Assembly (NCBI GenBank): GCA_003054665.1
Contig: QAYY01000011.1
Location: forward strand, 98,654 to 162,653
Reading direction: 5' to 3'
Length of the DNA: 64,000 nt
Source: Opitutaceae bacterium EW11
GTDB taxonomy: Bacteria > Verrucomicrobiota > Verrucomicrobiia > Opitutales > Opitutaceae
Part shown: in pieces, positions 50,284 to 51,804 of the stretch
How the letters are laid out: each line of letters opens with the position of its first letter
Numbering within the stretch: the stretch's first letter is position 1
The notes under the pieces: generated by a model
The model's input: only the letters and a program-made list of their open reading frames with translations
The model's database searches: none
What the model was told of the DNA's origin: nothing
Program-made: the position numbers and the translations under genes

Positions 50284-51804
50284 CTATACGTCTACGCGAT
50301 TTGCCGCGGCCACACGGCCGTACCAGAGCCCGGAATCCTTGATCTTCCGCTCCTGCGACGCGAAATCGACCCACGTGAGGCCGAAACGCCGTGTGTAGCC
50401 GTCGTTCCACTCGAAGTTATCGAGCAGAGACCACGCGTGGTAGGAGCGGACGTTGACACCGGCTTGGATGGCTCGGGCGAGTTCGGCCAGGTGATCGCGG
50501 TAAAACGCGATCCTCCGCTTGTCGTGCACCGCGCCGTCGGCTCCCGGGCCGTCGGCGAAAACGCTGCCCGTCTCGGTGATTTCGATGGGCAGGTTGCCGG
50601 TCAGTTTGGATACCTGGGTTACGAGATAGGAGAGCCCCTGGGGCCACATTTCCCAGCCGGCATCGTTCTTTGGACCCTCGTTGAAAAGCCCGATGTGAAA
50701 CTGGCTCATCGGGTCCGGCGTCTGGCCGCCTCCCCGCGGCTTGGGCGGTTCCGTGGCGGCGGCAATCGCGAGGCGGAGGTAATAATGCACACCGACCCAG
50801 TCGAGGGGGCATTTCAGGACCGCTTCGTCTCCCGAGCGGAAGCCCATCGCCTCGTACGGTATCGGACCGGCAAATACGTCCGGATAGCGGCCTGTCAACG
50901 TGGCATTCAGAAACAGGGTGTTGTGCAGTTCGTGAAAGCGCCGGGCGGCCTCGCGGTCGGCGTCGCTCTGCGTTCTGGGAAACGCCGGCTCCATCCCGTA
51001 CGCGCTGCCGACGGTGGCTTTGGACGACGCGGCCTTGATCGACCGATACGCGAGTCCCTGGGCGAGGGCTACGGTGTGCAGCGCGCGGAGGTAGTCGTCG
51101 GTATTGGCGCGCCCCGGCGGAAACCGGCCGTTGCCGTAACCGTAGTAGGTAAACGTCTCCGGCATGTTGAACGGCGCCCAGACGGTGATGCGGTCGCCCA
51201 AGTGTTTTGCGAGGAGCGCCGCATAGTCGGCGAAATGCCCGGCGAGATCCCGGTTGGGCCAGCCGCCCTTTTCCTCCAACGCCTGCGGCAGATCCCAATG
51301 GTAGATGGTACAGAAAGGGCGGATCCCTGCTTCGAGCAGGGCGTCGGTGAGACGGCTGTAGTAGTCGAGCCCCTTGGCGTTCACCGCGCCGGTTCCGGTC
51401 GGGAGCACGCGCGGCCAGGAAACGGAGAACCGATAGCTTTTCAGGTTCAGCCGCTTCATGATTTCGATGTCGTCCTTGAACCGGTGATACTGATCACAAG
51501 CGGTATCGGCGTTGGCTCCGCCGGCGATTCTTCCCGGTGAGTGGCCCCATCGGTCCCAGATCGACTCGCCCTTGCCGTCATCCTTCCACGCGCCCTCTAC
51601 CTGATGGGCCGCGGTGGCGGTTCCCCAGAGGAAGCTTTCGGGGAAACGGGCACCGGTGAAAGCGAGAGCGGGTGTGTGTGTCGGCTCCTGGGCTGCAGGT
51701 TCACCGGCTCCGAATGCGGACGCAGGACGCGCGAGCAGGGCTGCGCCTCCGACTGCCAGCGAACGTTTGATAAACGAACGCCGTTCCATCGATGGATTGC
51801 TCAT
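50284..51804 (-). CDS. GH1 family protein lacking the acid/base glutamate
   Basis: 506 residues, Tat-like signal near the start ([10 protein letters not shown]) ending about residue 31. The fold is a GH1 beta-glucosidase: [37 protein letters not shown], the nucleophile E411 in IEITETG, and [17 protein letters not shown]. The acid/base motif N-E-P, however, reads N213-M214-P215, so the usual catalytic Glu is Met; a Glu lies two residues on (E216). Activity is therefore uncertain: it might use external acids, act as a transglycosylase, or only bind sugar. It follows the GH2 gene by 69 nt on the same strand. Confidence 0.85.

Follow-up and report, generated by a model that had tools for sequence, protein, structure and literature searches.

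A GH1 glycosidase clade with methionine at the acid/base position and histidine in place of the partner asparagine

The locus and its GH1 protein

The window, a stretch of 64,000 nucleotides from the genome of Opitutaceae bacterium EW11, contains an intact, full-length open reading frame with an ATG start codon for a glycoside hydrolase family 1 (GH1) protein (Table 1). Both sequence and fold place the protein in GH1: it matches Pfam Glyco_hydro_1 (PF00232) at E=4.2e-143, scores 498.1 bits against the 478.5-bit cut-off of NCBIfam TIGR03356 (GH1 beta-glucosidase), and is modelled by AlphaFold2 (window protein plus 24 relatives) with a mean pLDDT of 88.7 and a pTM of 0.87. The best 50 of 875 Foldseek matches in the PDB (E<=0.001) are all titled beta-glucosidases or glycosidases, with TMq of 0.80-0.85 and 37-42% identity to the window protein, and no solved structure of a member of the Met/His clade described below is among these 50.

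Table 1. Features of the GH1 locus (positions in the window)
Feature	Position	Strand	Basis
GH1 protein, Met/His type, 506 aa (P0001)	50284..51804	-	ORF call, Pfam/NCBIfam match, AlphaFold2, Foldseek
Tat-type export signal, ~residues 1-31	51712..51804	-	sequence, end estimated by eye
Met214, GH1 acid/base position	51163-51165	-	codon ATG; PDB and clade alignment
His340, place of conserved Asn (Asn282 of Thermus beta-glycosidase, N294 of HoBGLA)	50785..50787	-	alignment
Glu411, catalytic nucleophile	50572-50574	-	codon GAG; alignment
GH2 gene, Pfam Ig_GlcNase domain (exo-beta-D-glucosaminidase type)	51874..54834	-	ORF call, Pfam
GHL6-type gene, convergent neighbour	47801..50185	+	Pfam; 65% identical relative in G003, host family

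Where canonical GH1 enzymes carry the acid/base Glu in an NEP motif, the window protein reads N213-M214-P215, the Met codon being flanked by AAC and CCG. The first-pass annotation had reported this motif beside an intact nucleophile E411, and the codons (ATG and GAG) and PDB alignments bear it out, with Met214 aligned to the acid/base Glu in 6z1h and to the Q in 8ivy, an entry titled 'BglA mutant E166Q'. His340 aligns with the first Asn of the GLNYY and AFNNY motifs in 6z1h and 8ivy. The acid/base Glu is missing also from the first of the two GH1 domains of PDB entry 8in1, which has DDP where NEP would be expected.

The GH2 gene ends 69 nt upstream of the GH1 gene on the same strand, and the two could possibly share one operon or transcript. 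Its listed ATG is, judged by eye, probably too early, the true start lying later. Around its acid/base the encoded protein has NGSDNPP, and around its nucleophile FNTETSPG; we take this for the Asp-type motif of exo-beta-D-glucosaminidases, in agreement with the Ig_GlcNase match. Its best relative in 57 genomes is 37% identical over residues 83-943. On the other side, the reading frames next after the GHL6-type gene are presumably mraZ/rsmH-like. Another GH1 gene of the window genome (L261, G000:C11:35028-36446) is an intact frame of 448 aa with a NEIS motif and GLNLY; the stop that the search flagged there is a TGA upstream of the ATG, outside the frame.

A coupled substitution in one clade

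Relatives of the window protein were sought in several genome sets. The GTDB species genomes were scanned with six of its peptides, one of which contains the Met (WAPFNMPE) and biases the scan towards Met proteins; nine relatives of 55-64% identity were recovered, all with NMP (eight from Acidobacteria, Acidobacteriaceae or Acidobacterium and one from Candidatus Sulfotelmatobacter), together with a frameshifted tenth. The other searches used the whole window protein as query, scoring the top six candidates per genome in the window's own family (252 genomes) and the top three in sets of 398, 396 and 387 genomes. Among the matches listed from the own-family genomes, those other than the window protein were at most 43% identical to it. 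Within the Acidobacteriota family of genome G280, a Met-type copy of full or near-full length occurred in 59 of 398 genomes (58 copies are in the alignment below and one was recovered separately), and 17 of these 59 genomes also encode a sister protein with the usual Glu and Asn. One further genome of the same family (G281, a MAG) carries the frameshifted Met/His copy (L065/L248), whose frameshifts could be either real decay or an assembly error. Across Acidobacteriota, 12 of 396 genomes had a Met-type copy, all 12 being also in the family sample, and among genomes of the window's phylum, of which 387 were searched, only the window genome had one, two other matches under the threshold being Glu/Asn.

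The alignment comprised 185 GH1 proteins, 123 with Glu214 and 62 with Met214 (61 from Acidobacteriota genomes and the window protein). Frames shorter than 380 aa were left out, among them L122/L225, L065 and L171; L122/L225 is one Met/His gene, dropped owing to an upstream in-frame stop. Met214 and His340 occur together in all 62 clade proteins, and the Glu214 proteins have Asn at 340 in 122 cases, Gln in one and His in none. The Gln protein (L067, from a Bacteroidetes MAG, with the usual NEP) is the sole other exception at 340 in the alignment. Outside it, L122/L225 and the readable part of L065/L248 also pair Met with His, and all 17 Glu proteins that could be aligned as far as position 340 have Asn there. 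Glu/Asn sisters (Glu proteins more than 46% identical, 55 in number, in one comparison, and more than 43% identical, 56 in number, in the other) use GAG (43/56) or GAA (13/56) at 214, so that at least two base changes separate their codons from ATG.

A tree was inferred from 129 of the 185 aligned proteins, namely every one of the 62 with Met/His and 67 of the 123 others, after removal of columns 214 and 340, by a quick search and with some long outgroup rows. The Met/His proteins formed a single branch (SH-aLRT 100) lying within the Glu/Asn sisters, for which one change suffices. The coupling thus represents one evolutionary event and, since all members descend from it, comes without independent replication. 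The pair has been kept over a tree length of 8.6 substitutions per column, with 123 of 452 columns invariant; Met is the commonest residue in ten columns, and only 214 and 320 of them are invariant. Between close pairs (more than 80% identical, dS 0.1-1.5), dN/dS was 0.03-0.22 in the clade (median 0.074, 123 pairs) and 0.01-0.19 in the sisters (median 0.088, 88 pairs), the pairs overlapping in sequences and hence not being independent. The Met/His clade is under purifying selection, like its Glu/Asn sisters. For the window gene itself, dS to the nearest relatives is saturated (2.0-2.3).

That the Met214/His340 change is fixed across this branch of soil bacteria suggests, at the level of sequence, that the active site has been rebuilt and not that the sequence is wrong. 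The first-pass annotation had named a sequencing error as what could undo its reading and had called for a look at the orthologs, and Met214 is found in all 62 clade members, as well as in the one dropped and the one frameshifted copy. Its judgement that the gene is probably not decaying and keeps an export signal likewise stands, given the full conservation, the purifying selection and the twin-arginine motif, which pattern matching detected in 60 of the 62 clade members and 48 of the 56 sisters; the two clade members without it probably have misplaced start codons. An error or a decaying gene, for which one could cite the frameshifted L065 and, in the window copy, the odd residue alone, is hardly conceivable against an intact window frame, the conserved relatives and the low median dN/dS, and Met214 in these relatives led us to discard it.

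The window protein groups with L099 (65% identity) and L084 (64%) of the Acidobacteriota set with support of 98-99, and it was probably acquired from Acidobacteriota, transfer being the simplest account. Locus L144 of genome G319 encodes an NEP/Asn340 protein with 56% identity to the window protein, as near as some clade members. The window region was compared with 54 loci on reading frames called by a simple script; among these loci, L058 and L218 denote one and the same place, and L144 is of the Glu/Asn type. Of the neighbour families, none was found in more than 7 of the 55 loci, and the longest common block of neighbours was shared by six loci of related genomes. Eight hand-picked neighbours were of GH2, GH106, GH95, GH29, glucuronyl-esterase and xylose-isomerase-like families, two being without a match. 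A conserved operon was therefore rejected as a clue to the substrate, and the neighbour families are too varied for a substrate to be named from them.

Active-site residues and candidate mechanisms

By spacing, the window protein can be matched to the T. thermophilus beta-glycosidase (numbering of PMC6467970): Q18, R75, H119, W120, N163 and E164 correspond to Q68, R125, H169, W170, N213 and M214 with an offset of 50 throughout, N282-x-Y284 to H340-x-Y342, and W385, E392, W393 and F401 to W458, E465, W466 and F474. The nucleophile Glu411, in its (T/S)E-x-G motif, is present in every clade member and in all 123 other GH1s. Q68, R125, H169, W170, N213, Y342, E411, W458 and W466 are invariant in the clade, and the canonical -1 subsite set (Q, R, H, W, N, Y, W, E, W) is thus kept in 62/62 except at E465. 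Here the window protein and 41 others have Glu, and 20 (L118, L119, L131 and others) have Gln at this contact to the 4-OH of the -1 sugar; these 20 may have a different glycone preference.

The +1 side has changed more. Trp384, which aligns with the Trp of a DMGW stretch in PDB chains and which we take to be the +1 aglycone platform, is replaced in 61 of the 62 (57 Leu, 2 Ile, 1 Phe and 1 Met); the window protein alone among them retains it, as do the frameshifted L248 and all 56 sisters. The role of Trp312 described for the Thermus enzyme is in line with this assignment (PMC6467970). Position 474 is Tyr in 60 members and Phe in the window protein, with one gap, and Phe in 56/56 sisters; position 211 is Pro throughout the clade and Ile (35/56) or Leu (21/56) in the sisters; and position 229 has gone from Ala to Pro in 59 members. 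As far as the alignment indicates, conservation covers the nucleophile and the greater part of the -1 site, and remodelling affects the acid/base and the +1 side. The altered +1 site points to an aglycone that differs from those of ordinary cellobiases. Glu216, which the first-pass annotation had considered as a substitute acid/base, is peculiar to the window protein (Trp in 60, Thr in one) and was discarded in that role. That annotation was right about a real residue in a gene that is neither erroneous nor decaying, whereas E216 as a substitute and a myrosinase-like Gln found no support in the clade. Each of its three proposals (activated leaving groups, transglycosylation or sugar binding) may still hold. 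It had noticed neither the coupled change of Asn to His340, a possible resident acid/base, nor the loss of the +1 Trp in nearly all relatives.

On these sequence grounds we tentatively favour a retaining beta-glycosidase of GH1 type that is exported, acts as a hydrolase or a transglycosidase, and has its acid/base in a new place. A shade more guardedly, the clade might be a natural branch of GH1 whose acid/base function has moved from the Glu of strand beta-4 to a His of strand beta-6, with Met left in the old place, making a rewired clan GH-A active site of possibly a transglycosidase or an enzyme with a non-water nucleophile. A glycosyl-enzyme intermediate could still form, because Glu411 is kept together with Tyr342 and Arg125, which partner it, and with most of the residues that bind the sugar at -1. 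With Met214 in place of the usual acid/base Glu and His340 in place of the Asn that normally holds it, the longer imidazole would, judging from residue positions, reach about the spot of the lost carboxylate oxygen, where it could protonate the leaving group and then deprotonate water or another acceptor. In the Thermus beta-glycosidase, Asn282 is described as hydrogen-bonding the acid/base Glu164 in more than 90% of MD frames, which helps to keep it in place for proton transfer, and as interacting also with the nucleophile (PMC6467970), so that His340 should adjoin both catalytic positions. In HoBGLA, N294T lowered kcat by ~23-fold (cellobiose) to almost 50-fold (lactose) (PMC4803828), and His as a general acid has precedents in GH117, GH3 NagZ and GH156 (PMC11574756).

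A relocated acid/base is supported by the Met214/His340 coupling, the -1 conservation, the median dN/dS and the coexistence with Glu/Asn sisters in the same genomes; the Gln at the -1 position 465 in 20 of the 62 speaks against it. The residues conserved in 61 or all 62 members included no clade-specific Asp or Glu that could partner His340 in a His/Asp dyad; the partner might be one common to other GH1s. The same data also fit a sugar binder or an enzyme needing no acid catalyst.

The main rival is a transglycosidase or acid-independent enzyme, since the clade has changed at positions where engineering raised transglycosylation. In such an enzyme, which we consider somewhat unlikely, Glu411 would attack donors whose aglycone leaves readily (aryl or acyl glucosides) without a protein acid, the glycosyl-enzyme would be passed to a non-water acceptor, and His340 would only aid the nucleophile or the acceptor. 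The His340 site is that of N282T in Ttbeta-gly, and the Glu392-sugar contact, whose equivalent is Gln465 in the 20 proteins, has been named as a route to a higher ratio (PMC6467970); Tyr474 recalls F417Y of HoBGLA, which lifted the GOS yield from 39.3 to 57.4% (PMC4803828); and a hydrophobic Met would be expected to disfavour water activation. However, the engineered changes were partly to other residues (N to T) and in enzymes with the acid/base kept, N294T of HoBGLA lowered the GOS yield (29.4 vs 39.3%; PMC4803828), and the window protein itself still has Phe474 and Glu465.

The loss of the acid/base beside a mostly kept -1 sugar site, and the lack of any neighbour family in more than 7 of the 55 loci, would also suit a catalytically silent sugar-binding protein of GH1 descent, such as an exported sensor or carrier. 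This is less likely because the nucleophile set of Glu411, Tyr342 and Arg125, for which a binder has no obvious need, is invariant, and the His aligns exactly with the residue that contacts the acid/base; we regard it as unlikely. Very improbable, finally, is an external base or anionic nucleophile (phosphate, carboxylate or another anion) admitted by a charge-neutral site, as has been argued for His-type GH3 N-acetylglucosaminidases, where work by Macdonald et al. in 2015 reportedly tied His in place of Glu to phosphorolysis. Phosphorylases are normally cytoplasmic, but 60 of the 62 clade members have the export motif, and the link between His and phosphorolysis is disputed within GH3 itself (RmNag3, PMC6987092).

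Comparison with known glycosidases

In clan GH-A glycosidases, the two catalytic residues are generally regarded as unchanging. A clade that has lost the acid/base, has His for its hydrogen-bond partner, and holds both under purifying selection would be a natural experiment on the relocation of a catalytic residue. The open-licence literature on altered-acid/base or acidobacterial GH1s, in the parts available to us, gave no description of a Met/His pair in GH1, and as far as that literature goes these proteins appear to be a GH1 variant not previously described. They share fold, nucleophile and -1 subsite with GH1 beta-glucosidases such as T. maritima BglA, H. orenii BglA and UnBGl1, but those enzymes have an acid/base Glu and a holding Asn, and 61 of the 62 clade proteins, the window protein being the exception, have lost the +1 Trp. 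A protein that passes the NCBIfam threshold for 'GH1 family beta-glucosidase' is thus not necessarily an ordinary beta-glucosidase.

Classical plant myrosinases, also of GH1, likewise lack the acid/base Glu, but they have Gln instead of Met, use ascorbate as a cofactor and act on glucosinolates (PMC8836197), and Gln at position 214 occurs in none of the 62 clade members. In GH3 NagZ, GH117 and GH156, His stands in for the carboxylic acid/base, but these are different families and their His has an Asp partner (PMC11574756), of which no clade-specific counterpart was found among the residues shared by at least 61 of the Met/His proteins. The nearest comparison is offered by the Glu/Asn sisters of the same Acidobacteriota (such as L153, L144 and L094), which are ~48-57% identical to the window protein and form the nearest tree branches. 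Unlike the clade, the sisters combine Glu, in an NEP or NEA motif, with Asn340, and have Trp384 and Phe474 in 56/56, so that, residing in part in the very genomes that encode Met/His copies, they could serve as natural controls for the two-residue swap.
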